Source of the DNA: Methanobrevibacter millerae
Lineage (GTDB): Archaea; Methanobacteriota; Methanobacteria; Methanobacteriales; Methanobacteriaceae
DNA length: 59,951 nucleotides
Direction: 5' to 3'
Assembly: GCF_900103415.1 (NCBI RefSeq)
Contig: NZ_FMXB01000019.1
Span: forward strand, 1 to 59,951
This document shows positions 1,316 through 59,951 of the stretch, in pieces. The notes under the pieces were generated by a model, which ran no database searches, was not told the origin of the DNA, and saw only the letters and a list, made by a program, of their open reading frames with translations. The position numbers and the translations under genes are program-made. The number at the start of each line of letters is the position of its first letter. Positions within the stretch are counted from its first letter, which is position 1.

Positions 1316-1348
1316 GTTAAAATTATATTTTAACCCTATTTTTTTTTT
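1315..1348 (+). terminator. hairpin plus T-run terminator of the TM2-like gene
   Basis: A perfect 9-bp stem (GGTTAAAAT / ATTTTAACC, 1315-1323 and 1327-1335) with a 3-base loop is followed by a run of ten T at 1339-1348. The stem starts on the last base of the stop codon. Confidence 0.8.
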
Positions 1349-1534
1349 AAATAATAATTAAGCTTTAATAAATCAGTAAAAAATACATCATTATCTAAAT
1401 TCATTTTCCTATCAATATTCAACAATAGTTTTGATATCAATGAAAAAATTAAATAATATAATTTAGATATTCTATAAATGAAACGGAGATTTAACTTATT
1501 ATGTCTTTGATGTTTGAGATATGGAAATGATAAA

Positions 1535-2311: not shown

Positions 2312-2354
2312 GCGTATCGTGGCGCTTGAAAAGAATTAAAAAAGGAGATAATAT

Positions 2355-2822
2355 ATGGTGGATGAAAAATCAATAATTGAAAATGATACGAACCGTATGA
2401 GCAAAAACGAGTATTATCTTGCAATTGCTCTTGCAGTTTCAAAAAGAAGCACTTGCCTTAAAAGACGCTATGGTGCGGTAATAGTCAATAACGATGAAAT
2501 TGTCAGTACTGGTTATAATGGAAATCCAAGAGGGGAGGAAAACTGCTGTGACAGAGGAAACTGTAAGAGGATGAACCTTCCATCTAATTCAGGCCACTAT
2601 GATGACTGCTTTTCAGTTCATGCCGAGCAGAATGCCATGATCAGTGCAAGCAGGAATGAAATGCTTGGATCAACAATTTTCCTCGCTGGGGAAATGTACG
2701 CTGATGGCGCCTGGGTGGAAATAGAGGATGCCGAACCATGCCCGATATGCTGTAGGATGGTAAAAAACTCAGGAATTGCAAAGATTGTTAGTAAGAAAGG
2801 GATTTTAGAGCTGCAAAAGTAA
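2355..2822 (+). CDS. dCMP deaminase (deoxycytidylate deaminase family)
   Basis: This 155-residue protein is a zinc-dependent cytidine/deoxycytidylate deaminase. The catalytic zinc motif is complete: H89-A-E91 in FSVHAEQNAM and C129-x2-C132 in EPCPICCRM. A Cys-rich insert (CCDRGNCKR, about 60-70) lies before the HAE motif, as in ComE/dCMP deaminases, which can carry a second zinc there. The likely reaction is dCMP + H2O to dUMP + NH3, feeding thymidylate synthesis in the cytosol. The start is supported by AAGGAGAT 8-10 bases upstream. Related cytosine or Blasticidin-type deaminases are less likely given the length and insert. Confidence 0.85.
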   Translation: MVDEKSIIENDTNRMSKNEYYLAIALAVSKRSTCLKRRYGAVIVNNDEIVSTGYNGNPRGEENCCDRGNCKRMNLPSNSGHYDDCFSVHAEQNAMISASRNEMLGSTIFLAGEMYADGAWVEIEDAEPCPICCRMVKNSGIAKIVSKKGILELQK

Positions 2823-3046
2823 TTTACACAGCATTTATATATTTTTTTAAGTTTCATATCAATTAATGCCGGCCATTAACCGTAAAGAACTCATTTTTTC
2901 AACCGCTTCATATATATCCATGTCTAAAATCAGATCGTATTTTCACCGACCCCTCAATTAATGCAAGGGTCAATCAATTAAATTAATGTAAAAAAAGTAG
3001 CTATCGATTAAATTTAAAGAAAAATAAAAAAATAATGGCAGGGGAA
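2823..3046. other. convergent intergenic region
   Basis: This separates the plus-strand dCMP deaminase from the minus-strand DUF2207 gene. It contains T-runs usable as terminators in both directions (TTTATATATTTTTTT near 2835-2850 on plus; the A-rich run at about 3018-3033 reads as a T-run on minus) and a weak GACCC/GGGTC hairpin near 2948-2971. Confidence 0.4.
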
Positions 3047-4834
3047 CTAGAAAGCTCCTCCACCTCCTCCGCCGGAACCTCCTCCGACTCCGCCAAAGCC
3101 ACCACCACTGGATGATGGGTTTGCAGCTGATATACCGTCGTTGAATGCACTGTTAAGCATTGATAATCCGGCATATGAGTGGAACCAGTACAGGTCTCCG
3201 TAATAGTAGTCGTCATCATGTATTTTCGGCACATGAAGTTTCATGGCTTTATATACCTCGTCAGCCACTCCAAGGGCGGTTCCATAAACGAGGTACTTGT
3301 TCCAGATGACTATTGATTCCGGAGGGTGCTCATTAATTAAACTGTTGTCCTTTAAGAACTTCTTGAAGTTATTCCATTTGAGATAGTACACACGGCCTTC
3401 AGGAGTCCATTGTCCCAAAATGTCTTCGGGAAGGAAGGAAACTCCGATTGAGAAGACTCCCAAAACGACAGCCCCAATCATTAGAAGTCCTGATGAGGGA
3501 TGATTGGAAAACATGCTTACAGCACCAAATATCACTGCTAAAAGCACTCCTCCCACAGTAAATCCGGAACCGAATGTGCTTCCGGCATCGTTGAAGTATT
3601 CTGAAATTCTCTCTTTGCCCAAATATTCGTTTGCAATGTCGTCTTTCCACTGTTCGAACTTGCGTTCGAAATATTTTCCGCTGGTTTCGTTGTTCAGTTG
3701 GGAAGACAGCTTTGACACGTTTAAAAGGCCGTTGTCGCTGAAGTTTTCAAGGGTATTGTAAACGGTCTGTTCGTGCTTTGCCAGAGAGTCATATTTGCTT
3801 TCATCAAATTCTAAAATCAGGTCTTTGGTATGCTCTCCTTCCTCTACGTGCATCTTGAATACCTTTCGGTCAATTAAATCCATGATTGTGGCCTCAAAGC
3901 CCTTGAGGTTCGGCTCGCCGATATTTGACTTGTTGTCAATCAGCGCGTTAACCATTGCAGGAGGGTCATCCGTTGGAAGTTCCCTTTCATAGATTCCTTC
4001 GTAGTTGACTTTAGGCTCCCTTCCGTATTTTAAGTAAGCGTAAACAAGAGATAATGGAGAGAGTATACCTATGGCGCTCAATACTGTGAATACGGTGCCC
4101 CAGAAGCTTACGCTGCCTTTGTATTCTGCCTGTTTTTGCATAATCTGGTCTTTTCCGTCGACGTTAACGTGCTTTGCGTACTGGGCGTCGGTAAAGTCGC
4201 TTAAAGGCATCAGTACCTGCAGCTCATAGAATTCCCCTGAAGGAATCTTCGTGGTTTCGGCAGTAATTATGTTTCCATTAATTGAATCGCTCAGGTTGTA
4301 GTATTCAGGGTTTAAATAGTAATTGATATCATTTGAACCCGGCAGGTGGACAATCGTTTTCAGGTGTTCCACGTCACAGTCCCAGTTCTCTCCCCACAGC
4401 TTGTATTGGAGAGATCCGATATCATTGTAAAGCGTCACGACGTTTTTCATGTCGTATGAGTAGGTTATTGTTACTTCCTGGTCATGAATCTTTTTGGTAT
4501 GGGCCTTATCTGCCCACAGATAGACTTTCAGGTGCTTTTGACCATTGCTCTCTGATTCCTCATAGGTGCCGTAGGCTCCGTCAATGTAAACGCTTATGTT
4601 GTCAATGCTCTCCCCTTCCTTCAGGGGGATATCCCGGTAAACTCCGTTGAATGTCCCATCAAAGGAATAGGTATAGCTTTCGTTTACGTGAAGCAGACCG
4701 TTACTGTTAATGGTCAATTCGATAAGGGAATCGATAATGCTGTAGTCCCTGTCGTCACCGGCATAGATGGCATTGGCCGAAGACAATATTACCAGTGACA
4801 ATAAGACTGCTACAGCTATTTTCTTATGATCCAT
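3047..4834 (-). CDS. DUF2207 family predicted membrane protein
   Basis: This is a 595-residue protein with an N-terminal signal peptide (IAVAVLLSLVILSSANAIYA). A large extracytoplasmic domain with the DUF2207 opening follows (Asn-Gly-x-x-x-V-x-E-S-Y-x-Y, then FNGVYRDIPL), then a transmembrane segment around residues 245-270, a cytoplasmic region, a hydrophobic pair around 425-475, and a Gly-rich tail ending GGGGGGAF. That tail and topology are typical of DUF2207 proteins. It lies 14 bases downstream of lemA and has its own GGTG ribosome binding site, so the two are co-transcribed. LemA/DUF2207 pairs recur in bacteria and archaea, but their role at the envelope is unknown. Confidence 0.88.
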   Translation of the reverse strand: MDHKKIAVAVLLSLVILSSANAIYAGDDRDYSIIDSLIELTINSNGLLHVNESYTYSFDGTFNGVYRDIPLKEGESIDNISVYIDGAYGTYEESESNGQKHLKVYLWADKAHTKKIHDQEVTITYSYDMKNVVTLYNDIGSLQYKLWGENWDCDVEHLKTIVHLPGSNDINYYLNPEYYNLSDSINGNIITAETTKIPSGEFYELQVLMPLSDFTDAQYAKHVNVDGKDQIMQKQAEYKGSVSFWGTVFTVLSAIGILSPLSLVYAYLKYGREPKVNYEGIYERELPTDDPPAMVNALIDNKSNIGEPNLKGFEATIMDLIDRKVFKMHVEEGEHTKDLILEFDESKYDSLAKHEQTVYNTLENFSDNGLLNVSKLSSQLNNETSGKYFERKFEQWKDDIANEYLGKERISEYFNDAGSTFGSGFTVGGVLLAVIFGAVSMFSNHPSSGLLMIGAVVLGVFSIGVSFLPEDILGQWTPEGRVYYLKWNNFKKFLKDNSLINEHPPESIVIWNKYLVYGTALGVADEVYKAMKLHVPKIHDDDYYYGDLYWFHSYAGLSMLNSAFNDGISAANPSSSGGGFGGVGGGSGGGGGGAF

Positions 4835-42440: not shown

Positions 42441-42819
42441 TTTTTATATTATGGGGTTTCATTCCTATTTTTTTTGAAATTCCTTTATTTAATTTTTAAT
42501 TAAAAGTAAACTCTTGGGAATAGTAATTTTCACTTCTTTTTTTTGATGGTAATTTCTTTTTTGATGATATTTTTTTTGGATTAACTGTTCACTCTTTCAT
42601 GCTGATTTTCCTATAGCTTTAAAAAGCATTGTTTTTCGAATTTTTATAATATGATTTGTATTCAATTTTTCATGTTATTTTTAAAATTAATTCATTTTTT
42701 ACTGTTAATTTTTTGATATTAAATTATATATATAATAAAATTGCAATATATATAATACCTTAAACTTTCGATGAAAATGTAAAAAATATATTTCAAAAAA
42801 AGTATGGAAAGGCGTAATT
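42441..42819 (+). promoter_or_regulatory. AT-rich promoter region of the giant adhesin-like gene
   Basis: No gene is seen. T-runs after 42455 probably end the ATPase transcript. TATA-like stretches at 42725-42740 (ATTATATATATAATA) and 42750-42762 point to a start near 42760-42785 and a 35-60-base leader. GGAAAGGCG lies before ATG 42820. Confidence 0.45.
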
Positions 42820-45800
42820 ATGAAGAAAAAGGAGATTATAATATTATGTTTATTGTTGTGCTTTATTTTGTCACTTCAATCAGCCGCAGCTGCTGATATA
42901 GGGTCAAACAGCACAAATACTAATGTGTCTTCAACTTCCAATATTGAAGTTGTCGAAAACGCAAATGATTTGCTGTCGAATTCAATTCTGGATGAAAATG
43001 AAACTCTGGGAGTTGGAGGCGGATCATTTACGGAACTTAATGAATTAATTAATGGTAATACTAATACTGTAATTGATTTGGGTCAAAATTATACTTATGT
43101 CAGTAGAGATTCCTTTGATGATGGTATTAAAATTAACCGGCCTTTGACTATTAACGGTAATGGGTATGCTATTGACGGTAATGGAATGGCCAGGATTTTT
43201 AATATCACTTCTTCGGTTACTCTGAATAATGTCGTATTCATTAGGGGAGCCGTTACGGGGGGTAATGATGGTGGTGCTCTCTTGATTACTGGCGATAACT
43301 GTATGATAAGTGATTCCAAATTTATTGATAACGTTGCCGGCCACAGTGGGGGTGCAATATTCTGGGATGCCGACCATGGAACCATAACGAATTCCGAATT
43401 TACTAATAACAGGGCTATGGGAGATTACCCTAATGGCGGTGACGGTGGAGCTATAATATGGATAGGTAGTCATGGTCTTGTAGATAATTGTACATTTACT
43501 GAAAATAATGCTAATGTTCGTGGTGGTGCAGTATTCTTAACTAATGATAGTACGCAGGACTGTAATAATACGACATTCAAAAATTCCAAGTTTATTAATA
43601 ACCATGCAGGTACTAACGGTGGTGCTATTGATTGGCACGAAGGTGCAATTGATGGTGAAGTAACTAACTGTACCTTTGAAAATAATACTGCTGATGCTAA
43701 TGGTGGTGCTGTATACTGGAGAGGCCATCATGGTGAAATTAAAGATTCTAACTTTACTAATAACACTGCTAATGGTTTAAAGAAAGGACGTTATAATAAT
43801 AATGGTGATGGTGGTGCAGTATTCTGGTCTGGTGTAAATGGTACTGTAACCAACTGTAGGTTTATAGATAATGAAGCTATATGTAACAAGACTGTTGGTG
43901 TACCTAGTGGTCGTGGTGGAGCAGTCTATATAGAACCATATCAAAATGACGATGGAGGACGTAACATCTCATTCCATGATTGTTACTTTAAAGATAATAA
44001 TGCAGGTAGTAATGGTGGTGCTATTGACTGGCATAAAGGTGCATTTGATGGTCTTGTTGATAACTGTACTTTTATTAATAATATAGCTAATAGATCAGGT
44101 GGTGCAATATACTGGTCAGGTACAAACGGTACTGTCAAAAAATCCACATTTACAGATAATAGGGCAACAGGTAAGTTCACCGATGACGTCGGTGGTGGTG
44201 ATGGTGGAGCTGTACTATGGATTGGTAGTGAAGGTCTTGTAGATAACTGTACATTTGCTGACAACTTTGCTCAATATCGAGGTGGAGCGGTCTTCTTGCA
44301 TAATGAATCCTCACAGGATTGTAATAATACTACATTTGCAAATTGTATATTTGAGAATAATGTTGCAGGTCTTAACGGTGGTGGTGTTGACTGGCAAAAT
44401 GGCGCACATAACGGTAGGTTAATAAATTCAACGTTTACGAATAACACTGCATGGAGATCAGGTGGTGCAGTATACTGGCACGGTACTAACGGTACTGTAA
44501 TAAATGTTACTTTTTATGACAACAAAGCTGTAGGAAACGTTTCTAAGGATTATAGAAATGTTACTAATTATACTACCTCTGGTGGTAACGGTGGTGCTAT
44601 TATCTGGACAGGTTCTATAGGTACTATTGAAAATTGTAATTTCACTAAAAACAATGCTTCTCAGTTAGGTGGTGGAATATACCTTCAAAGAAATGAAAAT
44701 ATATCAATCAAGGATTCTTCTTTTTCCGATAATTACGCAGGAAATATTGGAGGTGCAATCAATTGGAATGTAGGTGCTGTAAACGGGGTAGTTCAAAACA
44801 CGACATTTGTAAATAACTTTGCTCATGAAGACGGTGGTGCTATTTGCTGGAACGGTACTAACGGTACCCTAAAAGACCTTTACTTTTACAATAATGTTGC
44901 AGGAGACGACGGAGGTGCTGTTTTCTGGAACGGTACTAACGGTATTATAGATAATATAACATGTGATGACAACAAGGGTGTAAGTTTGCCAGGTAGTAAT
45001 TCAAACGGCGGTTCAATCTGTCTTACAGGTGATAATGTTACTGTTACCAAATCCAAATTCTCTAAAACATATGCTAAAATTACCGGTGGGGCTATATTTA
45101 TTACGGGTAATAATGTAAACATTACTGATTCCATATTTGAAAGGTGTAATGTTTCACACAATAATGAACATCAGGGCAAGAATTATGTAACTGGTGGTGG
45201 AGCGATTTACGTTTTAGGTAACAATTCAAATATTATTAACTGTACTTTTGAAATGGGTAACGGTAGAGAAGGTGGAATTGTTTATATCCAGGGGCATAAC
45301 GCTACAATTGCAAATTCATCTTTTGAAAAAAGTTATGCAATTAATGGTGGTTCCATATATATCAAAGGGGCCAATGCAACTATTTCAAACACAAATATCA
45401 GTTTAAGTAATGCTACAAAAGCTAATATAAATGAGATTTCCGGTGCTGGTGGTGCTATTTTCATTTCAGGTGATAATGCTACAATTAACAAAACTAATTT
45501 CAAAATCACTTATTCCTTTGGTTTAAATGCTAATGCCGGCGGTGCATTGTATGTTGCAGGACATAATGCTGATATTGTAGATTCAACATTCCTTAAGGGC
45601 ACATCTCAAAAATTGGGTGGTGCCATATATATTAAGGGTGATAATACAACGGTGGAATCTTCAGGATTCATAAGCAATGCTGCAGTAGCCAGTGGTTCCG
45701 AGGGTGGTGCTATTTATATTGAAGGTGCCAATACAAACATTACCCGCTCTCACTTTGAACACAATGAGGTTACTTCTGTCGGTGGTGCCGTATACATAAA

Positions 45801-48800
45801 AGGTGCCAATACAAACATTTCATATTCCAATTTCACAGATAACTATGCGGCGTCCCAGGCAGGGGCAATATACATGGTAGGAACAAATTCCACAATTTAC
45901 GGATCAAACCTTACGAAAAACCATGCAGTATCTACTGGAGGAGCCATGTATGTTGAAGGTTTAAATGCAAAAGTACACTACACATATTTCGATTCAAACT
46001 ATGCTAATAAAGGAGGTTCTATACTCTGGAGAGGAGGTTATGCCGGAAATGAAATTATAGGGTCAGTATTTGCCAATTCAAGAGCTATTGGTAATAATTT
46101 GCAAGGTGGTGCTATTTTCTGGGATGAAGGTGCCACATCAATAACAACATCCGGATCATTAATTAAAGACACTCTATTTATTAATAACACAGCTACTCAC
46201 CACGGTGGAGCTATTGATTGGTATAAGACAGATAACAGTGTCATAGACAATTGTACCTTTATAAACAACCATATTTCAGCTGGTGACGGAGGTGCACTCT
46301 ATTGTGGTGCTAAAGGTACCTATCAAGGGAATAACTTCACTGTTAAAAATTCAAAATTTATAAATAACACTGCCGTAACCTGTGGTGGAGCCATTGCGCT
46401 TCAGATGAAAAACAGTTTAATATTCAACAACACTTTCAGCGGAAATACTGCAAGTTACGGTGGAGATATTGCAATGAAGGAAGGTCAGGCTACAGGTACT
46501 ACAATTAATAATTGTACTTTTTCCAACTCAACGGCAAACGGTAGAAGCACTTGGGGTAATCACCAAGGTGGTTCACTTTTCATTTCAGACAAAGATGTTT
46601 CCGTATTGAACTCAAAGTTTTATAACTGTACTTCACTTAAAACTAATGGTGGAGCTATTTTCTGGTCTGGTGAAAATCCAAAATTAATTAATTTAACTAT
46701 TGTAAACGGTACCGCTTTATCCAAAAATGCATATGGTGGGGCTATATGTATCAATAAAAATAATGCAATTTTGATAAATATTACATGTAATGATTCCAGT
46801 GCATATCAGGGTGGAGGTATTGCTTTATTAACTGGTGCTGTTAAAATTTTCGAAAACGTCACTATCAATTCATGTCATGCTACACTCAATGGTGGTGGAA
46901 TATACGTTCATGCTTCATCACAAAACAATAATCTTGTTTCAGTTACAATAAATGATTCTACTGCTGAATATGATGGTGGTGGAATGTATATCAACAGTAA
47001 AACTGTTATTACCAATATTAATTTAACCTCTGATTCCGCTAATAGGGGAGGAGGTATTTTTGTTGCAGGTATCGGCGTTCAAATAACTAACTTGACAGCA
47101 GACGAATGTAGTGCAGTCAATAATGATTTGCTTCCGGGTTTAAAGAATTCATACGGTGGAGCTATCTACTGGCTGGGAAATAGTGGTATATTGGAAAACG
47201 CCAACATTTCAAATTCCACGTCAGATTATTACGGTGGTGGTATTTACGCTACAGGATATGGACTTAAAATGACTTATATTAATATGACATCCAATTCCGC
47301 TGATTACGGTGGTGGAATATATACCGTAAATGCCGATTTGAACGTTGACAGAAAAAATCCTATTATCATCAGCTTATCTTCATTTGATAAAAATCATGCT
47401 AACGTAGAAGGAGGAGCAATCTATTCAGGATATTACTCAGGTAAAATCTTAAATTGTAACTTCACCAACAATACTGCCGATTTGGGTGGTGCAATTGCAG
47501 TTGCAAGTGACTATCAAAACATTACAAAATGTTCATTTGATGGAAATAACGCAACAAGCTCCGGTGGTGCAATTTACGTAGAAAAAGTTATGTACAGCAC
47601 TGTCAGTGATTCCACATTTACCAATTCATACGCATATAATGGTGGTGGAGTATATAACTCAGGCAATTCAGGAATTGCGCTTTTCATTGACAATTGTACA
47701 TTTATTAAAAACCTTGCATCCCACAACGGTGGTGCAGTTTACTATGTCATGTTAAGTACAACAGGTTTTGAGACAATATATCGTGACTATAATAATTTCG
47801 ACGACAGAGGTCAGCCTGAAGACCCTGGTAGAACAACTGTCTCAATGAACACTCCTACAGGATCTTATCCGAACGTTATTTTTAATTCATACTTTAAGGA
47901 AAATGAAGATTATATATTAAATGTCACGGCTTTTGCTGAAGAAAATGTTGCAATTGTAAGTATCAGAAATCCTAAAGACATTGATAGGAGATCCCTTTTC
48001 ATTGTTGTAAATTTAACCTACAAAGATACTCATGGAGATGATATACTTGTTGGTTCTGTAGAAATTAATAGGCAAAATTATGCAAGTTATTTCAATTCTC
48101 ATGACCAAACATATAATGTAAACTTTTATGATTTAAATGTGACTACTTATAATATCACCGTTTTCTTTAAAGATGATAATTATTTAAATAAAACCAATCG
48201 CTCAGTAACTGTTACAATTACTGTAGATACCCGTAAAGGTGACTTCCATATCCTTCAGGGATTAATTGAAGCCGCTATAAACCAGGGATTAAACAACATT
48301 ACTCTGCAGAGAAGCTATTATTTCACTGATGACAGGTATAATCAGACTACGAAAAAACCTTTAGACGACAGCTGTATGAACATAACTGACTTGAAAAATC
48401 TCAAGAATTTCACCATTTACGGTGGAGGTAACATTATCAGCGCCAAACACAACGCAACTTACGGTAACAGCAGAATATTCAATATTACTGCAGCCAATGT
48501 AACTCTGGTTGGAATCACTTTCATGGACGGTAATGCAACAGGTAATTTCAGTGATGATGTTAATCGAGGCGGAGCCCTCTTCTGGGCAGGTAAAAACGGT
48601 ACTGCACTGAATTGTGACTTCATAAATAACTTTGCTGAATACGGTGGAGGAATCTACTACAATTCAACTGCGGACAATTGTAAAATCAGGGGCTGCGAAT
48701 TCTATAATAACAATGCTACCATTAACGGTGGAGCAATTGACTGTAATTCATCAAAAATGAACCTTACCAATTCTTACTTCGAGGCCAATACTGCAGGTGA

Positions 48801-51800
48801 ATACGGTGCGGCTTTATGTAGGGAAATAAATTCTACTGAAGGTTTTGGTGTTAACAACACATTTAAAGGAAATAATGCAGGTATCGGTGGTGCAGCTTTA
48901 GGTTGGATTAACGCATCAAGCATTAAAATTGACGGATATACATTCATTGACAACACAGCAGGCTTAAATGGCGGAGCGATATACGTCGGTCCGGGAAGTG
49001 GTGACTGTCTTATAAACAACAGTTACTTTGAAGGCAATTATATCAATAATCCAAACGCTGAAGGTCACGGTGGAGCAATCGAATGGTACGCAACCAGAGG
49101 TAATGTTATCAATTCAACATTCATTAACAACAGGGCTCCTACCGGAGGCGCAATATATGTCGGAGATCAATCCCAAAACATCAACATTACAGGTTCCGGA
49201 TTTACAAATAACACCGCTTTACAAATCGGTGGTGCTATCGATTTGGCAGGTTCATCCGTTTCAATCAATGACTCTTACTTTAGCGAAAACACTGCTTTAA
49301 GCGGTGGAGCAATATTCGTTAGAAGTGTCGGTGAACAAAATTATATTAACGGTTCATCTTTCACCAGCAATGTAGCAACCGACGGTAAAGGTGGAGCTAT
49401 TAACTGGAACGCTTCAGCAGGACAAATCTTCAACACCAACTTTACAAACAACTCCGCTAGTTATGGTGGTGGAATATATATCGGAGGTAACTCTTCAAAC
49501 AGCCAAATAGTTAATGTAATATTCAAATTCAATAACGCAACCTTCAACGGTGGTGCTATAGACTGGAACGCTACCGGTGGTAAATTATACAACAACACCT
49601 TCATATCAAATTACGCAGGTGATTTCGGTGCTGCATTATGTAGGGAAGCCAATGCAACCGGAGGTGGAGGTAAAAACAACACTTTCATCTCAAACCATGC
49701 AGGAATCGGTGGTGCAGCTTTAGGTTGGATTGATTCAGTCGGAATTACAATTGACGAATATTACTTCTACAACAACACTGCTGGCATTCACGGCGGAGCC
49801 ATATTCATAGGTGAAAACAGTCACAACTGTACTGTCAAAAACTCCATTTTCGCAGGAAACAATGCAACCATTCGAGACGAGCATGGTGACGGCGGGTTCG
49901 GTGGAGCTATAGTATGTCTTGCTGCAAATTCAACCGTTATAAACTCCCGCTTCACTGACAACAATGCTCATGAAGGAGGAGCAATATATGTAACCAGTGG
50001 GGCAGGTAATACAAATATCACAGGTTCAGAATTCAGAAGAAACACTGCATTCGAATACGGTGGAGCTATAGGATTAAGAGCATCAGCAGTTAACGTAAAC
50101 GAATCAAAATTCTATGACAACGTCGCAAAAGAGGGTGGAGCTTTATACCTCGGTGGTAAAGGTATTACCAACACAGTATCATTATCCGTCTTTGAAGGAA
50201 ACAATGCTACTGAAGGATACGGTGGAGCTATCAACTGGCTTGCATCATCAGGTAACATTACTGATTCAAATTTCACAAAAAACTCTGCAATCTACGGTGG
50301 AGGAATAGCTCTTGGAATAAACTCCGCAGACAGCCATCTTGTCAACATTACATTTGACGGCAACTACGCATACAAAAACGGTGGAGCTATTGACTGTAAC
50401 GCTTCCCGTATGACACTATACAATACGACATTTAAAAACAATATCGCTGAAGAATTCGGTGCAGCTTTATGTAGGGAAGTAAACGCTACAGGAGGTAGTG
50501 GTAAAAACAATACGTTCATCGCAAACCATGCAGGAATTGCAGGCGCAGCTCTCGGATGGATGGGATCTGTCGGCATTAAAATAGATACCTATTTCTTCTA
50601 CAACAACACTGCGGGCAGAGGTGGCGGAGCCATATATGTATCTCCAACCAGTCATAACTGTACTATAATCAATTCCACTTTTGACGGTAACAGAGCACTC
50701 AACGATACTATTGGTCATGGTGGAGCTATTGATTGTCATGCATCAAATGCTACTGTTGTAAATTCAACTTTCTCCAATAACAGAGCATTTGAAGGAGGTG
50801 CAATAAATGTAGAAAGTAGTTCAGGTAATACTCGGGTTACCAATTCATCATTCTCTTATAATGTCGCAACCAGCGCCGGTGGAGCTTTGAATGTTGAAGG
50901 ATCATCAGTTACTTTAAATTACACTGATTTCTACTACAATAGAGCATCAAATGGTGGTGCTTTATTTGTTGGTGGTGAAGGTATTACCAATTATGTTTAC
51001 TACTCCAAGTTCGTTGGAAACAATGCAAGTAACGGTAATGGTGGAGCTATTGACTGGGTTGCTTCAGCAGGTCATATCATATATTCCAATTTCACTGAAA
51101 ACTTTGCCAGGTATGGTGGTGGAGTATATCTGAATGGAAATTCACGTGACAGTAATATTGATCATGCAATATTCGACAATAACCGTGCTACAGTTAACGG
51201 TGGAGCTATTGACTGGAATGCAACCGGGGGTAATTTAACAAATACCTTGTTTAAAAACAATTATGCTGCCGCTTACGGAGCTGCATTATGTAGGGAAGCC
51301 AATTCAACCGGAGGATTCGGATATAACAATTCATTCATTGCAAACAGCGCCGGAATTGCAGGTGCGGCTTTAGGATGGCTTGAAGCAAAAGGAATCAAAA
51401 TCGACCACTACACTTTCATCAACAACTCTGCAGGCAAAAGCGGTGGAGCAATTTACGTTGGAGATGGCAGTGATGACTGTAAAATCCTAAATTCAACGTT
51501 TGAAGGAAATAATGTACTTACCGGCCGTGGCGGAGACGTGGATTGGGTTGCATCAAACGGTTATGTATACAATTCCACGTTTACAAACAGTATCTCCACA
51601 AACGGTGGTTCAATGTACGTTGGAGCCAATTCCGAAAACGTTACAATCCTTAACAGCACATTTACGTTATGCCGTTCACTGAATGATGGTGGAGCACTTG
51701 AAATACACGGTGACAACGCAAACATTACAAATGATGTTTTCATATCTTCATTTACCTTTAATCACGGTGCCGCAATTATGGGAATCAATGCAGATAACGC

Positions 51801-54800
51801 TACAATTACCAACACTACATTCAAATACAGCGTATCTGCTGGTGCTTATGACATATATGGAAAATCAAGCGGTGACGGTGGTGCAATCTACTGGAAGGAC
51901 TCTTCAAATCTTACAGTTAGCAATTCAACCTTCCTTAAAAACGAAGCTCATGCATACGGTTCTGCATTATGTTTGGTTAATTGTAACGATACATTTGTCT
52001 ATAATTCCACATTTGATAATGAAACTGCTGGAAACGGTATAATTTCCGTATCTGATTCAGTTAATACGACCATTAAATTAACTAAATTTAACAATGGAGC
52101 TTCCATTTTCAATGGGGGTGCCATTTACATAGACAATTCAAATGCAAATATCAGCGATTCCGACTTTGACAACGTCAAATCCGCATGGGGCTATGGTGGA
52201 ATAATTTACGTTAACGGTAACGCTACAATGAACAATTTGACATTGAATGAATTTTCTTCCAAGGATGGTATCGGTGCAGGAATTTATTTCCAATCAGGAA
52301 ACTCAACATTGACAAATTCATCATTATCCGGTTCCAATGCGATATGGATCAATAAAGGCGCTAATGTGACTTTAACTACAAATAATAATACTGATAATTC
52401 AGGTATTTATTCAGTATGGAATGCGGGTAATTTATGGCTTGAGAAAAACATATTTGACAGTTATATTTATAATGATGGTGATATCTGGACTAATACAACC
52501 ACTAAACTTTTAAATAATGAAACTTGGAATACTACCTGGATGGAAATTTTCACATTTTGGGCTAACATTACTGATGATAACAACAATTCAATCATTTCAG
52601 TAAGAACCTTGAACACGTCTAATGATGTTTACCAGGATAAAGATAACTCCTATATATTATATAACAATACATTTACATCTCCTGCATATTTCCAAGGTGC
52701 ATTCCATCTCACCGCATTTGATAATGGATTGCATAAGAATCGGGTTTATAACGGTACGCTGAATGTAAAAATGCCTGTGACCTTGAAAATAGATGTCGGT
52801 GATGTAACTCAAGAGAATTTTGATGTCACAATTTCGCTGACGCCTAAAGCAAGAAGTAACTTTACTATCGATAAGCAAATTATAAAATTCAAAATAGGAG
52901 ATAAGGAAATACCTCTGGAAATTCAATGTTATGAAAAGCTAATTGATGGTTTCACAACTTGGATTCTTGCTAATGCAACTAAGGAATTGGGTCATTTGCC
53001 TGAAGGAACATATACTGTAACGGCATCATATGCAGGTGATGAAGTCCATTTAGCGGCTTATAATATAACCCAATTTACTATAAAATTACGTGAAACATGG
53101 ATTAAAATAATCATTAACAACATTACTTATGGTCAAAGGGCAATCGCAAACGTTACTACTAACGCAAACGGTACTGTGCTCTTCTCCATGAATGGAAGAA
53201 ATGTAAGGGAAAACATTACAGATGGTAAAATAGACGTGGTATTGCCTACCATATTGAATCCGGGCAATTATTCAATGTCCGTTGTTTATCTGGGAAACGA
53301 GTATTATAAATATGCTCTGAATCAGACTGCATTTGAAGTATACTACCTTAATTCTACTCTGAAAGTAATTCCAACCAACATAAGCTATGGTGAAGATGAA
53401 ATTATCAACGTAACTTTAAACAACAATACCACTACAGGACACATTATGATTGAAATTAATGGCCGTGAATATGTGGCTCCAATTTTAAATGGAACTGCAA
53501 TGTTTAATATTGACGGTTTACCTACAGGCAAATATGAAAATATCACTGCCTATTACAAGGGAGATATTCACTTCAATGGAAACTCAACCAATTTCACGTT
53601 CACGGTTAACGCAACCAAAAACTTTGAAATGGACGTTAAAGTCGATGATATCAATTTCGGACAGAACGCTACAGTAAGGGTATTGTTAAAGACCGATGCC
53701 ACTGGAAATGTAACGATTAAAGTCGATGACAACATTGTTGAAACTGTTATAATATCCAACGGTACGGCCGTTCTGGGAAATATCAGCGGATTAGCCGGCG
53801 GAGAGCATATTGTAAATGTAACCTACAACGGTGATTCATCATATGCGGTTAAAAGCATAAACAATACTAAATTCATGGTACATCCTACTGAAGATTGGAA
53901 AATGGGTATATATGGTTATTATGCACCATATGGTAAAAATTCCACAATCAATGTGACTACAGCCCCTTACCCTCTGGCACGTGATAATGTAACGATAATT
54001 ATTGATAATGTTACATACATTGTTCCTATCGGAGATGACGGCAACGCTACTTTAATATTGAACAATCTTTCTGCCGGAAGACATAATGGTACTGTAACTT
54101 ATCTTGGCGATGCAAATTATTCAGCTAAAACATCCAAATTCTATCCTTCAATTAATCAGGCAACCCCTACAATTACATTATCCAATACTACCAATGATGT
54201 GATTGCAACGCTTAGTAAATCAGGGGGTGGTGTAACTCCAACGGGCAGTGTAACATTCAATGTTAATGGTGCAGAATACACAGTTGACCTTACCGGAGAT
54301 CGTGCAGTTTTAAATGATAAGCTGGTAATCGGAAACAACAGCGTCACGGCCACGTATAACGGTGATCAAAACTATACTATTGCCAAAGCAAAAGCCAATT
54401 ATACCATAGACAAGCTTCTGGCAACTGTAAACGTGACAGTAAACAACACGGTTTACGGTAAAGTTGTTGAAATCCTTGTTCGTGTCGGCGAAAACCAGAC
54501 AGGATCTGTAAAGATAGAGGTAAACGGCAAGTACTATATGGATACGCTTAACAATAGAGAAGCAAAATTCAATATAATAGGATTAAATGTAAATGAGTAC
54601 ACTGTAAACGTATACTACAGCGGAGATTCTTCATATTTATCAGAGAATAATTCAACTAAATTCAATGTTACCAAGGCGAACATGACTGCAAACGTAACAG
54701 GTCAAAACGTAACTTCCCTTGAAAACATCAGCTTCATTATAAGTGATGTATCTCCTAGCGACTTTGCAGGAAAAGTCAACATTACTGCTGCTAAGGGCGT

Positions 54801-57800
54801 AAGCTATGACGGCGACATTAAAGGATTGATTGTAATGGGCAAATTGCCTGCAGGAAACTACACTGCAAACGTGACTTTCTACGGTGACAATAACTACAAC
54901 AACAATACCTTAAAGGTCAAATTCACGGTTTCAAGAGCCGCTTCAGGCATGAGCGTTAACATTAGTGATGCAACCTATCCTGCTGCAGCAATAGCCGAAG
55001 TCCATGTGAATAATCATGCTAACGGTACTGTAAACATTACTGTTGACAATAAAGTCTTTAATGAAACGGTAAGGAATGGTATTGCATACGTTAATTTGGA
55101 AGGTTTATCTGCAGGTGATAAAGTTGCAAATGTTAAGTTCTTTACTGATGATGAGTATAACGACAACATGACTGCAACCGCTAAATTCAGGGTTTATAAA
55201 AACACTTCAGCCATTGAAATTGAAGTTAAAGAAGTTTACAGGGTTGGAGAGGAAATCGTAATCACATTTAGGCCTACTAATGCAACCGGTACAATAACTG
55301 CAAGCATTAACGGAAAAGCTCAGCAAGTCAATAAGGCCGACAATACTACAACTCTTCCTGACGGTTTGGCAGAAGGCACTTACACGATAATCGCTAATCT
55401 GGCAGAAGACACCAATTACGAGTCTTCCACAAACTTTAAAGTATTCAACGTTACCAAAAACGATATAAATATTACTTTAAGCGGAGGCTTAAACGTTAAT
55501 TATGTCGGCACTCCTATTGTTTTAACTGCTGAGTTGAATGAAACTGTAAACGGCACTGTAGTATTTACCATTAATGGAGTTAACTACACTTCAGAGGTAA
55601 ATAACGCCAATAAGACCACTTATTCATACACTCCGGTTAACAACGCAACCTTAGATATCGTTGCAGTATTTGTCGGAAATGAAAAGTATAATGCTAATTC
55701 ATCAAATCCATTGCGGTTAGATGTTCAGAGACTTCCTTCATCTGTAACTTTAAGCAACGTGACTATTGAGGTTGGAGAAACCGCTAAGTTCGTAATCAGC
55801 GTTACTGAAGGCGCTACAGGTGTCGTTAATGTGACTGTCAATGGCGAAACCCAAAGCGTTGGTCTTGTTGATTCAAACGCTACAGTTTACGTCACGGGCT
55901 TGGATAGCAATCAATCATATCCTATCACGGTCAAATATCTCGGTGACGACAAGTATGAGCCAAGTGATAATCTTACCAATAACGTTAACGTCAAAAAGGC
56001 ATCCAATTATGTTTATGCCGTTATCGCTTCAGATACTATTGTTGGTGGCAGCTCTACGGTCACTGTATTCTTGCCGACTGATGCTGACGGTAATGTAACA
56101 ATCGGCGATAAATCCGTGAAAGTTCAGGGCGGTAAAGGCGTAATCGTTTTAGATAAGGAAACTACTGCCGGTGAAAAAACGGTATATGTAAATTACACCA
56201 ACGACAGCAAATACGATAATATTACTAATGCTCCTGCAAACTATAATGTCAGCAAAGCTTCTTCAAGCGTCAATATCACTGTCGGCAATATCTATATTAT
56301 CGGCGATACCGTTGTAATCGAAGTTAATCCGGTTAACGGCACTGCAAACGTAACAATAAACGGTAATAATTATACTCTTGTAAACACCAATGTTACTTTC
56401 ACTGCAAATAAAACAGGTATTTATAATGTCGTTGCAACTATTGAAGAAAGCCGTGATTATTATGGATCCCGCGCTACGGCAACCTTCAACATATTTGAAG
56501 CTTCCTCAGCCATTAAAATTGAAGTTGGAGAGCTTTATAGAGTTGGTGAAACATTCACAATCAAGTACGAAGCCATTAATTCAACAGGCCCTATTACCGT
56601 AACAATCAACGGCAAAGCTTATAAGGTCATTAATAATGAAACTATTATTCCGGGCAATCTGACTGAAGGAACTTACATTATCGTTGCCAATCTGGCTAAT
56701 GACACTCAGTATGGTCCTGCAACCAGTTCAAAAGTCTTCAATGTAGTTAAAAACAACATAACGATTACATTAAAAGATGTTTCCGGAAACATTTATGTCG
56801 GAACTCCAATTGATTTAACGGCTGAACTGAACGAAACTGTAAACGGAACTGTAGTATTTACCATTAATGGAGCAAACTACACAGTTCAAGTTAATAACGC
56901 TAACAAGACCACTTATACATACACTCCAGTTAACAACGATACTTTAAGGGTATTTGCCACATTCGTTGAAAATGTTAAGTATAATGCTAATTCAACCGGT
57001 CCAAAAACAGTTGATGTCGCTAAAGTCGCATCAGAAATTACCTTAAGCGACGTAAGGATTGAAATCGGCGAAACGGCAAAAATCATAATCAATGTCACTG
57101 ATGGCGCTACAGGCACTGTTAACGTAACCGTTAATCACATAACCCAAAGTGTAGGTCTTGTCGATTCAAAAGCAATAGTTTACGTATCCGATTTAGAAAA
57201 TGATACATATTCAATCGCTGTGAAATATCTCGGTGATGAAAAATACGCAGAAAGTGAAAACAATAATCATAATATTTATGTAAATAAGACGACCAGTTTC
57301 GACTTCACTGTTGTCGCTTCTGATACGGTTGTCGGAGGAAATTCCACAGTCACTGTCATTTTACCTGGCGATGCTGACGGTATCGTTACAATTAACGGCA
57401 AATCAGCAAATGTCGAAAATGGTAAAGCAGTTATCGTTTTAAATAAGGAAACAACCGCAGGCGAAAAGGAAATTACCGCATATTACACTGGCGGAAGCAA
57501 ATATGCAGACAACTCAACTAATGCCAAGTATAATGTTTCCAAAGCCCCTTCAAGCGTAAATATTACTGTCGGAAATGTTTATATCATCGGTGATACCGTA
57601 ACGATTACTTTAAGTTATGTAAATGGTACTCCTACTGTTAAAATCAATAATGCTGATTATACTATGGTAAAAGACCAAATTACCTTCAAGGCCAATAAAA
57701 CTGGAGAATATAATGTTGTTGCCACCATTGAAGGAAATGATTCCTATTACGGATCTTCTGCAGCTGCAACCTTCAACATATTTGAAGCTTCTTCAGCCAT

Positions 57801-59951
57801 TGAAATTGAAGTTGGAGAGCTTTATAAAGTCGGTGAAACATTCACAATCAAGTACGAAGCTATTAATTCAACAGGCCCTATTACCGTAACAATCAACGGC
57901 AAAGCTTATAAGGTCATTAATAATGAAACTGTTATTCCGGGCAATCTGACTGAAGGAACTTACACTATCGTTGCCAATCTGGCTAATGACACTCAGTACG
58001 GTTCTGCAACCAGTTCAAAAGTCTTTAACGTAGTTAAAAACAACATAACGATTACATTAAACGACGTTTCAGGAGTCATTTATGTCGGCTCTCCGGTCAA
58101 ATTCACAGCTGAACTTAACGAAACGGTTAACGGAACTGTCATATTCAACATCAATAACGTCAGCTACACAGTTCAACTTAACAACGGCAATAAAACAAGC
58201 TACACATACACTCCAGTCAATAATGATACCTTGACTGTTGTAGCTACGTTTGCCGAAAACGATATGTATTATGCCGATTCAACCGATGCGAAAGTTATCA
58301 ATGTCAAAAAGCTTCCTACATACATTAATGTAACTGTAGACAGCCCTATTGTCGTTGGAGACAATGCCGTATTTGAAATAACAATGGACCCTTCAATCAA
58401 TGCAATCGTAACATTGAATCTCAGCGGTAAAACCTATAGTGTGGCCGTTAAAAATGGTGCTGCCAAATACATCGTTTCCGGATTGGACAACGCCACCTAC
58501 ATGGTAAACGCAAGCTTTGCAGGTGACGACATGTACCTGCCAAGCTCAAACGTCACTACATTATATGTCAATAAGGTTTCAGACTATGAAATTAAAGTCA
58601 TTACCGGTGACATTGAGGTAGGTAACAACGCAACAATACTTATTGTTTTACCTTCCGATGCAGATGGTGAACTTGTCGTTAAAGTAAACAATACGGAATA
58701 TCCAAACACTATAGTTAACGGCATCGCAAATGTCATTGTTGAGGGTCTTGATGTCGGCCGCTATGAAGTTAACGTAACATATAAGAATGACAGCAAATAT
58801 GTGAGCAAGGATAAAAACTCCACATTCTTCAATGTCAACGCACACGTCGGCTACGACGTTATCTTAACTGTGGAAAACCATACCTTCGGTGAAAACACAA
58901 TAATAACCGTTGAAGTTCCTAAAGACATAAAAGAAAACGTAACGATTGTCGTTGATGGAGACGAATACTCAGTTAAGGCAAACGCAAGTGGAATAGCTAC
59001 GTTATCATTAAACAATTTATCAGGAGGTCTTCACTACGTTGCTGCAATATATGAAGGAGACAGCCATTATCTGGGCAATTCAAACTTCACTTCATTTGTC
59101 GTATCACGTGCGCAATCCGAAATTGGCATCGATTTCAACACACCTGTATTTGTCGGTGATGACGTAATTGTAAATATCAGCATGCCTCAAAAAATCAACG
59201 GATCTGTGATATTGACCGTTGGAGACGATACCTACAGCATTATCGTTAAAGATGGCAATGCAACATACACATTAAAAGACTTGATGAACGGAACTTACGC
59301 CATTAAGGCTACATTTGAAGGAAACGAAAACTACACTCAAAACAGCTCAGCCGTTAAGGACTTGGTGGTCAGTAAGATTCCTGGAAGCATCAACGTCACG
59401 GTACTCAACAAAGGCGAAATAGTCGTAGGCCAAGACGTGGAACTTGAAATTGAATTGTCACTACCTATTGACGGATCAGTCATTGTAAATGTCAATGACA
59501 AGACATACTATGTAAAAGTCAGCAACGGAAAAGCTCCTCTTGCATTATCCAATCTTAAATCTGGCAATTACACTGTAACGGTCAGTTATTCTGACGATAG
59601 GAAGTATGACATTTCACCTAACAGCACGAAATTCGAAGTATTGAATAAGATTGATTCATCAACTGTAATGAACGTTACAATCACTCAAAACGGAACAAAC
59701 GCTACGGTATACGTTGAACTGCCTTCAAATGCAACAGGTAACGTGACCGTTGTCATTGACGGTAAAGTATACAACATAACCAACGTGACAGAAGGCATTG
59801 CGGTTATTAATGTTACAGACATCATGCCTGGAAATCACACGGTTGAAGTAATATACTCAGGTGACGGTAATTACACTGGCACTAATAATGTTACTGATGT
59901 TAATATTCCTAAGATTTCAGATTATGTATTTGAGGCTAATGCTACTGGTGG
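42820..59951 (+). CDS. giant secreted adhesin-like protein, beta-helix plus Ig-like repeats (3' end outside window)
   Basis: One frame stays open to the window edge, at least 5,710 codons; translations sampled every ~1 kb and most lines of the first 2.4 kb are in the same frame without a stop. It begins with a signal peptide: MKKKE, then a Leu/Cys/Ile-rich core ending in SAAAAD, cleavage near residue 25. After ~40 variable residues come two right-handed beta-helix blocks (43024-47770, 48235-52440), rich in GGAI-(D/Y/F)-W and NCTF-x-N-N-x-A rungs like Chlamydia polymorphic-membrane-protein repeats. The rest is a train of ~90-residue Ig-like domains with Y-x-G-D-x-x-Y endings and many N-x-S/T sequons. 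These are the traits of the adhesin-like proteins abundant in Methanobrevibacter, implying a role in surface attachment. No catalytic motif is seen; the C-terminal anchor lies beyond the window. Confidence 0.9.
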   Translation, partial: MKKKEIIILCLLLCFILSLQSAAAADIGSNSTNTNVSSTSNIEVVENANDLLSNSILDENETLGVGGGSFTELNELINGNTNTVIDLGQNYTYVSRDSFDDGIKINRPLTINGNGYAIDGNGMARIFNITSSVTLNNVVFIRGAVTGGNDGGALLITGDNCMISDSKFIDNVAGHSGGAIFWDADHGTITNSEFTNNRAMGDYPNGGDGGAIIWIGSHGLVDNCTFTENNANVRGGAVFLTNDSTQDCNNTTFKNSKFINNHAGTNGGAIDWHEGAIDGEVTNCTFENNTADANGGAVYWRGHHGEIKDSNFTNNTANGLKKGRYNNNGDGGAVFWSGVNGTVTNCRFIDNEAICNKTVGVPSGRGGAVYIEPYQNDDGGRNISFHDCYFKDNNAGSNGGAIDWHKGAFDGLVDNCTFINNIANRSGGAIYWSGTNGTVKKSTFTDNRATGKFTDDVGGGDGGAVLWIGSEGLVDNCTFADNFAQYRGGAVFLHNESSQDCNNTTFANCIFENNVAGLNGGGVDWQNGAHNGRLINSTFTNNTAWRSGGAVYWHGTNGTVINVTFYDNKAVGNVSKDYRNVTNYTTSGGNGGAIIWTGSIGTIENCNFTKNNASQLGGGIYLQRNENISIKDSSFSDNYAGNIGGAINWNVGAVNGVVQNTTFVNNFAHEDGGAICWNGTNGTLKDLYFYNNVAGDDGGAVFWNGTNGIIDNITCDDNKGVSLPGSNSNGGSICLTGDNVTVTKSKFSKTYAKITGGAIFITGNNVNITDSIFERCNVSHNNEHQGKNYVTGGGAIYVLGNNSNIINCTFEMGNGREGGIVYIQGHNATIANSSFEKSYAINGGSIYIKGANATISNTNISLSNATKANINEISGAGGAIFISGDNATINKTNFKITYSFGLNANAGGALYVAGHNADIVDSTFLKGTSQKLGGAIYIKGDNTTVESSGFISNAAVASGSEGGAIYIEGANTNITRSHFEHNEVTSVGGAVYIKGANTNISYSNFTDNYAASQAGAIYMVGTNSTIYGSNLTKNHAVSTGGAMYVEGLNAKVHYTYFDSNYANKGGSILWRGGYAGNEIIGSVFANSRAIGNNLQGGAIFWDEGATSITTSGSLIKDTLFINNTATHHGGAIDWYKTDNSVIDNCTFINNHISAGDGGALYCGAKGTYQGNNFTVKNSKFINNTAVTCGGAIALQMKNSLIFNNTFSGNTASYGGDIAMKEGQATGTTINNCTFSNSTANGRSTWGNHQGGSLFISDKDVSVLNSKFYNCTSLKTNGGAIFWSGENPKLINLTIVNGTALSKNAYGGAICINKNNAILINITCNDSSAYQGGGIALLTGAVKIFENVTINSCHATLNGGGIYVHASSQNNNLVSVTINDSTAEYDGGGMYINSKTVITNINLTSDSANRGGGIFVAGIGVQITNLTADECSAVNNDLLPGLKNSYGGAIYWLGNSGILENANISNSTSDYYGGGIYATGYGLKMTYINMTSNSADYGGGIYTVNADLNVDRKNPIIISLSSFDKNHANVEGGAIYSGYYSGKILNCNFTNNTADLGGAIAVASDYQNITKCSFDGNNATSSGGAIYVEKVMYSTVSDSTFTNSYAYNGGGVYNSGNSGIALFIDNCTFIKNLASHNGGAVYYVMLSTTGFETIYRDYNNFDDRGQPEDPGRTTVSMNTPTGSYPNVIFNSYFKENEDYILNVTAFAEENVAIVSIRNPKDIDRRSLFIVVNLTYKDTHGDDILVGSVEINRQNYASYFNSHDQTYNVNFYDLNVTTYNITVFFKDDNYLNKTNRSVTVTITVDTRKGDFHILQGLIEAAINQGLNNITLQRSYYFTDDRYNQTTKKPLDDSCMNITDLKNLKNFTIYGGGNIISAKHNATYGNSRIFNITAANVTLVGITFMDGNATGNFSDDVNRGGALFWAGKNGTALNCDFINNFAEYGGGIYYNSTADNCKIRGCEFYNNNATINGGAIDCNSSKMNLTNSYFEANTAGEYGAALCREINSTEGFGVNNTFKGNNAGIGGAALGWINASSIKIDGYTFIDNTAGLNGGAIYVGPGSGDCLINNSYFEGNYINNPNAEGHGGAIEWYATRGNVINSTFINNRAPTGGAIYVGDQSQNINITGSGFTNNTALQIGGAIDLAGSSVSINDSYFSENTALSGGAIFVRSVGEQNYINGSSFTSNVATDGKGGAINWNASAGQIFNTNFTNNSASYGGGIYIGGNSSNSQIVNVIFKFNNATFNGGAIDWNATGGKLYNNTFISNYAGDFGAALCREANATGGGGKNNTFISNHAGIGGAALGWIDSVGITIDEYYFYNNTAGIHGGAIFIGENSHNCTVKNSIFAGNNATIRDEHGDGGFGGAIVCLAANSTVINSRFTDNNAHEGGAIYVTSGAGNTNITGSEFRRNTAFEYGGAIGLRASAVNVNESKFYDNVAKEGGALYLGGKGITNTVSLSVFEGNNATEGYGGAINWLASSGNITDSNFTKNSAIYGGGIALGINSADSHLVNITFDGNYAYKNGGAIDCNASRMTLYNTTFKNNIAEEFGAALCREVNATGGSGKNNTFIANHAGIAGAALGWMGSVGIKIDTYFFYNNTAGRGGGAIYVSPTSHNCTIINSTFDGNRALNDTIGHGGAIDCHASNATVVNSTFSNNRAFEGGAINVESSSGNTRVTNSSFSYNVATSAGGALNVEGSSVTLNYTDFYYNRASNGGALFVGGEGITNYVYYSKFVGNNASNGNGGAIDWVASAGHIIYSNFTENFARYGGGVYLNGNSRDSNIDHAIFDNNRATVNGGAIDWNATGGNLTNTLFKNNYAAAYGAALCREANSTGGFGYNNSFIANSAGIAGAALGWLEAKGIKIDHYTFINNSAGKSGGAIYVGDGSDDCKILNSTFEGNNVLTGRGGDVDWVASNGYVYNSTFTNSISTNGGSMYVGANSENVTILNSTFTLCRSLNDGGALEIHGDNANITNDVFISSFTFNHGAAIMGINADNATITNTTFKYSVSAGAYDIYGKSSGDGGAIYWKDSSNLTVSNSTFLKNEAHAYGSALCLVNCNDTFVYNSTFDNETAGNGIISVSDSVNTTIKLTKFNNGASIFNGGAIYIDNSNANISDSDFDNVKSAWGYGGIIYVNGNATMNNLTLNEFSSKDGIGAGIYFQSGNSTLTNSSLSGSNAIWINKGANVTLTTNNNTDNSGIYSVWNAGNLWLEKNIFDSYIYNDGDIWTNTTTKLLNNETWNTTWMEIFTFWANITDDNNNSIISVRTLNTSNDVYQDKDNSYILYNNTFTSPAYFQGAFHLTAFDNGLHKNRVYNGTLNVKMPVTLKIDVGDVTQENFDVTISLTPKARSNFTIDKQIIKFKIGDKEIPLEIQCYEKLIDGFTTWILANATKELGHLPEGTYTVTASYAGDEVHLAAYNITQFTIKLRETWIKIIINNITYGQRAIANVTTNANGTVLFSMNGRNVRENITDGKIDVVLPTILNPGNYSMSVVYLGNEYYKYALNQTAFEVYYLNSTLKVIPTNISYGEDEIINVTLNNNTTTGHIMIEINGREYVAPILNGTAMFNIDGLPTGKYENITAYYKGDIHFNGNSTNFTFTVNATKNFEMDVKVDDINFGQNATVRVLLKTDATGNVTIKVDDNIVETVIISNGTAVLGNISGLAGGEHIVNVTYNGDSSYAVKSINNTKFMVHPTEDWKMGIYGYYAPYGKNSTINVTTAPYPLARDNVTIIIDNVTYIVPIGDDGNATLILNNLSAGRHNGTVTYLGDANYSAKTSKFYPSINQATPTITLSNTTNDVIATLSKSGGGVTPTGSVTFNVNGAEYTVDLTGDRAVLNDKLVIGNNSVTATYNGDQNYTIAKAKANYTIDKLLATVNVTVNNTVYGKVVEILVRVGENQTGSVKIEVNGKYYMDTLNNREAKFNIIGLNVNEYTVNVYYSGDSSYLSENNSTKFNVTKANMTANVTGQNVTSLENISFIISDVSPSDFAGKVNITAAKGVSYDGDIKGLIVMGKLPAGNYTANVTFYGDNNYNNNTLKVKFTVSRAASGMSVNISDATYPAAAIAEVHVNNHANGTVNITVDNKVFNETVRNGIAYVNLEGLSAGDKVANVKFFTDDEYNDNMTATAKFRVYKNTSAIEIEVKEVYRVGEEIVITFRPTNATGTITASINGKAQQVNKADNTTTLPDGLAEGTYTIIANLAEDTNYESSTNFKVFNVTKNDINITLSGGLNVNYVGTPIVLTAELNETVNGTVVFTINGVNYTSEVNNANKTTYSYTPVNNATLDIVAVFVGNEKYNANSSNPLRLDVQRLPSSVTLSNVTIEVGETAKFVISVTEGATGVVNVTVNGETQSVGLVDSNATVYVTGLDSNQSYPITVKYLGDDKYEPSDNLTNNVNVKKASNYVYAVIASDTIVGGSSTVTVFLPTDADGNVTIGDKSVKVQGGKGVIVLDKETTAGEKTVYVNYTNDSKYDNITNAPANYNVSKASSSVNITVGNIYIIGDTVVIEVNPVNGTANVTINGNNYTLVNTNVTFTANKTGIYNVVATIEESRDYYGSRATATFNIFEASSAIKIEVGELYRVGETFTIKYEAINSTGPITVTINGKAYKVINNETIIPGNLTEGTYIIVANLANDTQYGPATSSKVFNVVKNNITITLKDVSGNIYVGTPIDLTAELNETVNGTVVFTINGANYTVQVNNANKTTYTYTPVNNDTLRVFATFVENVKYNANSTGPKTVDVAKVASEITLSDVRIEIGETAKIIINVTDGATGTVNVTVNHITQSVGLVDSKAIVYVSDLENDTYSIAVKYLGDEKYAESENNNHNIYVNKTTSFDFTVVASDTVVGGNSTVTVILPGDADGIVTINGKSANVENGKAVIVLNKETTAGEKEITAYYTGGSKYADNSTNAKYNVSKAPSSVNITVGNVYIIGDTVTITLSYVNGTPTVKINNADYTMVKDQITFKANKTGEYNVVATIEGNDSYYGSSAAATFNIFEASSAIEIEVGELYKVGETFTIKYEAINSTGPITVTINGKAYKVINNETVIPGNLTEGTYTIVANLANDTQYGSATSSKVFNVVKNNITITLNDVSGVIYVGSPVKFTAELNETVNGTVIFNINNVSYTVQLNNGNKTSYTYTPVNNDTLTVVATFAENDMYYADSTDAKVINVKKLPTYINVTVDSPIVVGDNAVFEITMDPSINAIVTLNLSGKTYSVAVKNGAAKYIVSGLDNATYMVNASFAGDDMYLPSSNVTTLYVNKVSDYEIKVITGDIEVGNNATILIVLPSDADGELVVKVNNTEYPNTIVNGIANVIVEGLDVGRYEVNVTYKNDSKYVSKDKNSTFFNVNAHVGYDVILTVENHTFGENTIITVEVPKDIKENVTIVVDGDEYSVKANASGIATLSLNNLSGGLHYVAAIYEGDSHYLGNSNFTSFVVSRAQSEIGIDFNTPVFVGDDVIVNISMPQKINGSVILTVGDDTYSIIVKDGNATYTLKDLMNGTYAIKATFEGNENYTQNSSAVKDLVVSKIPGSINVTVLNKGEIVVGQDVELEIELSLPIDGSVIVNVNDKTYYVKVSNGKAPLALSNLKSGNYTVTVSYSDDRKYDISPNSTKFEVLNKIDSSTVMNVTITQNGTNATVYVELPSNATGNVTVVIDGKVYNITNVTEGIAVINVTDIMPGNHTVEVIYSGDGNYTGTNNVTDVNIPKISDYVFEANATG
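43024..47770 (+). repeat. beta-helix block 1 of the adhesin-like protein
   Basis: It opens with an N-cap-like stretch (SFTELNELINGN ... RPLTINGNGYAIDGNG). About 1,550 residues of short rungs follow. In the first part a higher-order unit of about 120-130 residues recurs, marked by GGAIDW-type motifs at 43618, 44014, 44377 and 44749 (spacings 396, 363 and 372 bases). Each motif is followed by a GAxxG-x-(V/L)-x-N-(C/S/T)-TF element. Confidence 0.8.
48235..52440 (+). repeat. beta-helix block 2 with four ~274-residue modules
   Basis: A second N-cap (GDFHILQGLIEAAINQG ... NFTIYGGGNIISAKHN) opens it. The marker GAALCRE recurs at 48808, 49630, 50461 and 51280, with spacings of 822, 831 and 819 bases. 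Each copy is followed by AGI-(G/A)-GAALGW and, about 63 residues after the marker Cys, by a second Cys in a (H/D/G)(N/D)C motif. Confidence 0.85.
52700..59951 (+). repeat. Ig-like domain train with ~1.29-kb higher-order repeat
   Basis: Roughly two dozen domains of 85-95 residues fill this part, typically V(G/N)(D/E)xxxxxV ... G-x-(V/I)-x-(V/F)-x-(I/V)-N-G and ending Y-x-G-D/N-x-x-Y. A composite unit of several domains begins with SSAI-(E/K)-IEV at 55207, 56506 and 57793 (spacings 1299 and 1287 bases). The third copy diverges after about 58310. The unit also includes TAELNETVNGTV and ASDT(I/V)VGG segments. Confidence 0.85.

Follow-up and report, generated by a model that had tools for sequence, protein, structure and literature searches.

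The window analysed here, a 59,951-base stretch of DNA from Methanobrevibacter millerae, is the entire contig C19 of a draft genome (2,720,712 bases in 48 contigs). Its right-hand part is taken up by a single plus-strand frame that opens with ATG and, by ORF listing and translation, continues to the window end through 5,710 codons without a stop. The base composition of 42820-59949 predicts about 400 in-frame stops, yet none is present; the remaining two forward frames carry 22-109 stops per 1.7 kb along the giant ORF. We thus confirm the preliminary description, which had proposed an uninterrupted frame of at least 5,710 codons reaching the window edge, and a search inside 42820-59951 returned no stop, frameshift or sign of a chimera. 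Because the window is the complete contig, the absent stop reflects the contig end, and it is the assembly that cuts the gene. Repeats of the type described below would defeat short-read assembly and break the contig. At the opposite edge, window 1-543 holds a DDE_3 transposase fragment, and the same frame is left open at the end of contig C21; an insertion sequence thus probably caused the left-side assembly break.

Domain anatomy of the window protein

The gene and the parts of its product, an adhesin-like protein (ALP), are as follows.

42820..59949, plus strand: giant ALP gene, 5,710 codons, 3' end lost at the contig edge (ORF listing, translation)
42820..42894, plus strand: N-terminal Sec-type signal sequence (MKKKEIIILCLLLCFILSLQSAAAA), residues 1-25 (inspection; paralogues start alike)
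43102..47814, plus strand: beta-helix block 1, ∼residues 95-1665, 49 GG[AGS][ILVM] repeats (Pfam, motif count)
48004..48225, plus strand: linker between the helix blocks, with one weak Ig-like match (residues 1729-1802, E 0.011; repeat profile)
48307..52464, plus strand: beta-helix block 2, ∼residues 1830-3215 (Pfam, motif count, AlphaFold2)
48793..51462, plus strand: 819-831 nt super-repeat (273-277 residues) in block 2, 3-4 copies, 68-73% DNA identity
52783..59913, plus strand: Ig-like (Big_3_5) array, 26 complete domains and 1 partial, ∼88 residues each (Pfam, profile, AlphaFold2)
55500..58290, plus strand: 1287-1293 nt super-repeat comprising five Ig domains, 66-82% DNA identity

Pfam matches on the window frame are to Beta_helix (1e-52), Chlam_PMP (1.3e-46), and Big_3_5 (2.6e-147, 17 stretches). 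The Ig-like domain count comes from a profile made from the window's own repeats, which places the array at ∼residues 3322-5698, and nearly all of the 82 GG[AGS][ILVM] motifs in the protein fall within the two helix blocks. AlphaFold2 models a single Ig repeat with a pLDDT of 94.8 (built on an alignment of 26 repeat rows from the window) and a single beta-helix super-repeat with a pLDDT of 93.4. In Foldseek searches of the PDB, the Ig model gives weak matches to Ig-type domains; the helix model weakly matches the pneumococcal adhesin PfbA, phage tailspikes, and polysaccharide lyases, with PfbA the closest solved beta-helix (weak, E 7e-3). The description of a surface ALP with two beta-helix blocks and some two dozen Ig-like domains is therefore supported by Pfam, the repeat profile, and AlphaFold2, and the signal peptide ascribed to it can be seen in the translation as a hydrophobic segment common to the paralogues. 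The protein also contains 326 Asn-X-Ser/Thr sequons. Pfam matches to Lsr2, DUF7862, MG4, CE2_N, and similar families were discarded as repeat-driven or below cut-off, and an NCBIfam BapA/LapF match was rejected at 39 bits, the cut-off being 180. A C-terminal autotransporter barrel of the chlamydial Pmp type was not found, the likeness to that family being in the PMP repeats alone.

The probable C-terminus and a tandem neighbor

Contig C28 begins with an 866-codon, stop-terminated fragment that carries the same Ig repeat in phase. We read all contig ends of the genome, where about ten ALP-like frames exit contigs and ten enter; of the incoming ends, a single one, at the right of C28, matches the C19 right edge in DNA.

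59696..59951, plus strand: last 256 bases of the window, 79% identical to the open edge of C28 (minus strand), its putative continuation with the stop

By repeat phase, using a 171-residue unit, at least ∼63 codons would be missing, in frame, at this predicted junction. Conserved gene order provides a second line of evidence: window 3016-41006 is collinear with 1854568->1815962 of M. millerae SM9 (G014), upstream of the ALP gene sm9_1600, contig C29 is collinear with the SM9 genes directly downstream of sm9_1600, and 5.9 kb of the second giant gene on C28 (C28 8193-14124) is 91.6% identical to sm9_1600. The collinear DNA of the two genomes shows 72-84% identity. The synteny of the window and C29, together with the likeness of C28 to sm9_1600, gives the contig order C19-C28-C38-C29. 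In relatives, GltX worked as a synteny anchor and the neighboring ATPase did not.

The 866-codon fragment is thus very probably the C-terminus of the window giant, judging from sequence matches and contig order. Joined in this way, the full protein would have at least ∼6,640 residues, of which the window encodes the 5' ∼86%, and ∼10 further Ig-like domains would lie on C28. It is unlikely that the same ALP instead finds its C-terminus on another orphan edge (that of C24, C29, C20, or C38), with the C28 piece belonging to a different giant. The Ig repeats are alike in all ALPs, and the right end of C19 does match C20L, C24L, and C29L at the protein level; yet C28 alone matches it in DNA, most of the other ends pair better elsewhere (C12-C20, C38-C29, C24-C27, C27-C39, and C28-C38), and SM9 synteny places C28 between C19 and C29.

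Taking C28 as the continuation, we can ask how the protein ends. Pfam finds a terminal Big_1 domain (3.8e-17) on the C28 fragment, which is tied to C19 through the predicted junction. The expectation of a transglutaminase or pseudomurein-binding domain at the C-terminus was not borne out: neither these (transglutaminase, PMBR) nor an LPxTG-type anchor was detected by Pfam along the window frame and the C28 fragment, and the putative C-terminus has Big_1-like, M1-C-type domains. The M1-C domain, the C-terminal ∼200 aa with Big_1 similarity in 44 M. ruminantium ALPs, has been proposed as a wall anchor (PMC2812497); given the predicted junction, the window giant would resemble those ALPs in having a Big_1-like C-terminal domain of the kind believed to tie such proteins to the cell wall, a likeness judged via Pfam Big_1. 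Other giants end differently: those of G019, G024, G029, and G069, and of C7 and C20 in this genome, have a C-terminus with TGNP, a hydrophobic stretch, and an RRFRK-like tail, likely a membrane anchor or sorting signal that replaces the Big_1-like end in these siblings.

A second giant starts 469 nt past the stop-terminated fragment. It runs for 6,943 codons on C28, passes into C38 through a 330-base overlap at 99.7% identity, and has a C-terminal fragment on C29.

C28 1-20829 (minus strand), C38, and C29 1-3491: second tandem giant ALP (loci L108, L005, L046, and L037)

Provided that C28, C38, and C29 join in this order, the second giant would have at least ∼9,850 residues. Giants also stand in tandem in five relatives (G019, G024, G035, G029, and G063). 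The corresponding locus of SM9 holds one giant where this genome holds two. By synteny, architecture, Ig array, and the Big_1-like C-terminal end predicted for the window giant, sm9_1600 is like that giant, and its first ∼140-150 residues are 60% identical to the window giant versus 36% to the second giant; across residues ∼1200-4150 it clearly resembles the second giant more than the window giant, and its Ig array is mixed. Comparison of these sequences suggests that recombination could have fused tandem giants in SM9, or that duplication could have occurred here; either way, the locus illustrates the growth and recombination of such genes.

Size, relatives, and proposed function

The preliminary description had placed this protein at the extreme of size, which holds in part. 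It is very long, but not at the extreme of Methanobrevibacter: this genome and those of relatives contain longer ones, and the size is exceptional only in part because a published 7,805-aa ALP, sm9_1600 of M. millerae SM9 (PMC4987999), occupies the corresponding locus. Further giants in this genome reach 7,219 codons on C12 (open-ended), 6,943 on C28 (longer through C38 and C29), and 6,132 on C7, and closed genomes of relatives hold frames of 7,805 and 8,259 aa. Published M. smithii ALPs extend to 4,691 aa (PMC11532034). At 9,409 aa, a surface protein from nanohaloarchaea has been described as the largest protein of any cultivated archaeon (PMC10266531). Since draft assemblies truncate the longest genes of archaea, sizes are under-reported.

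Among 60 sampled Methanobrevibacter genomes, 27 contain the inter-block linker at E <= 0.001, and its strong matches come mostly from frames ∼4 to 9.2 kaa long. The window gene is a real giant of an already well-described ALP family, of extreme size but known kind. It shares with the Methanobrevibacter/Methanosphaera ALPs that combine RBH and archaeal Big domains (PMC11532034) the N-terminal hydrophobic segment, the RBH, the Ig-like (Big) domains, and the proposed adhesin role, and differs from the published M. smithii ALPs in its greater length, two helix blocks, and predicted M1-C-like end.

We consider it very likely that the window frame encodes the 5' ∼86% of a giant Methanobrevibacter ALP of at least ∼6,640 residues, in tandem with a longer giant, and that this ALP would be a Sec-exported, wall-held, glycan-binding adhesive fibre. 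From family knowledge, Sec would export the protein, and the C-terminal Big_1-like (M1-C-type) domains would hold it in or on the pseudomurein wall, M1-C anchoring being itself a proposal. About 37 Ig-like domains would then form a stalk of roughly 0.1-0.2 micrometre, with the N-terminal beta-helix blocks as the outer glycan-binding tip, a role that has been proposed for ALPs (PMC11532034). This tip would attach the methanogen to hydrogen-producing microbes, protozoa, or plant/host polysaccharide as putative ligands. By analogy, the protein probably serves for sticking to microbial partners; a precedent for ALP-mediated adhesion is that of Mru_1499 and protozoa (reviewed in PMC10658910). In the rumen, ALPs are believed to draw methanogens close to hydrogen producers, and they count as candidate targets for reducing methane. 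The gene itself would have grown through duplication of its internal super-repeats.

A highly improbable alternative is that the gene is a decaying, unexpressed giant or that its product is a SPEARE-like secretion/predation machine instead of an adhesin. A giant protein comes at huge cost, and a role in attacking or holding host cells has been proposed for the nanohaloarchaeal SPEARE giants (up to 9,409 aa; PMC10266531), which resemble the window giant as very long archaeal surface proteins with tandem Ig-like domains. However, 5,710 codons have been kept free of stops, along with the signal sequence and leader, and Pfam shows no ATPase or enzymatic domain, VirB4/TraG-like ATPase included, across the window frame and the C28 fragment; the window giant also differs from the SPEARE type in belonging to another lineage and in its beta-helix blocks. 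An in-frame joining of two ALP genes by misassembly is a scarcely credible origin for the long frame, even in a draft genome with many ALP breaks at repeats: the coding signal is unbroken along the frame, and many relatives, the closed genomes G014 and G029 among them, encode the two-helix-block plus Ig architecture in one frame.

A leader shared among giants

Aligning the regions upstream of the giants revealed a shared block near AWATATCANTATARACTCTCCAYR, of which the window gene has a degenerate copy.

42750..42773, plus strand: degenerate leader copy (6 mismatches to AWATATCANTATARACTCTCCAYR), 46 nt upstream of the ATG (motif comparison)

The motif occurs nine times in eight genomes, as compared to none for a reversed-pattern control, and each of the nine sites lies shortly upstream of the start of a signal-peptide-bearing ALP, in the correct orientation. 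It was seen ahead of giants in G000, G014, G029, G063, G024, G019, G069, and G073; G069 and G073, whose giants carry it, were both absent from motif building. In the genomes searched, the motif thus appears almost only ahead of giant ALP genes. It is probably a promoter or transcript-start sequence, and transcript 5' ends are predicted near TATARACTCTCC. Such a conserved leader argues that the giants are expressed genes, and it offers a handle on the timing of giant production. Its sharing may reflect either joint control or common descent alone. Tentatively, and with somewhat less than even confidence, we suggest that the tandem neighbor of at least ∼9,850 residues exceeds the 9,409-aa archaeal record and that giants of the genus are co-controlled via this dedicated promoter/leader motif. 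The gene-proximal part of the leader forms an imperfect inverted repeat in the window (42761-42794), on C28 (20845-20878, GACATTGTAAAAAATAAATGTC), and also in SM9, a possible regulator site.
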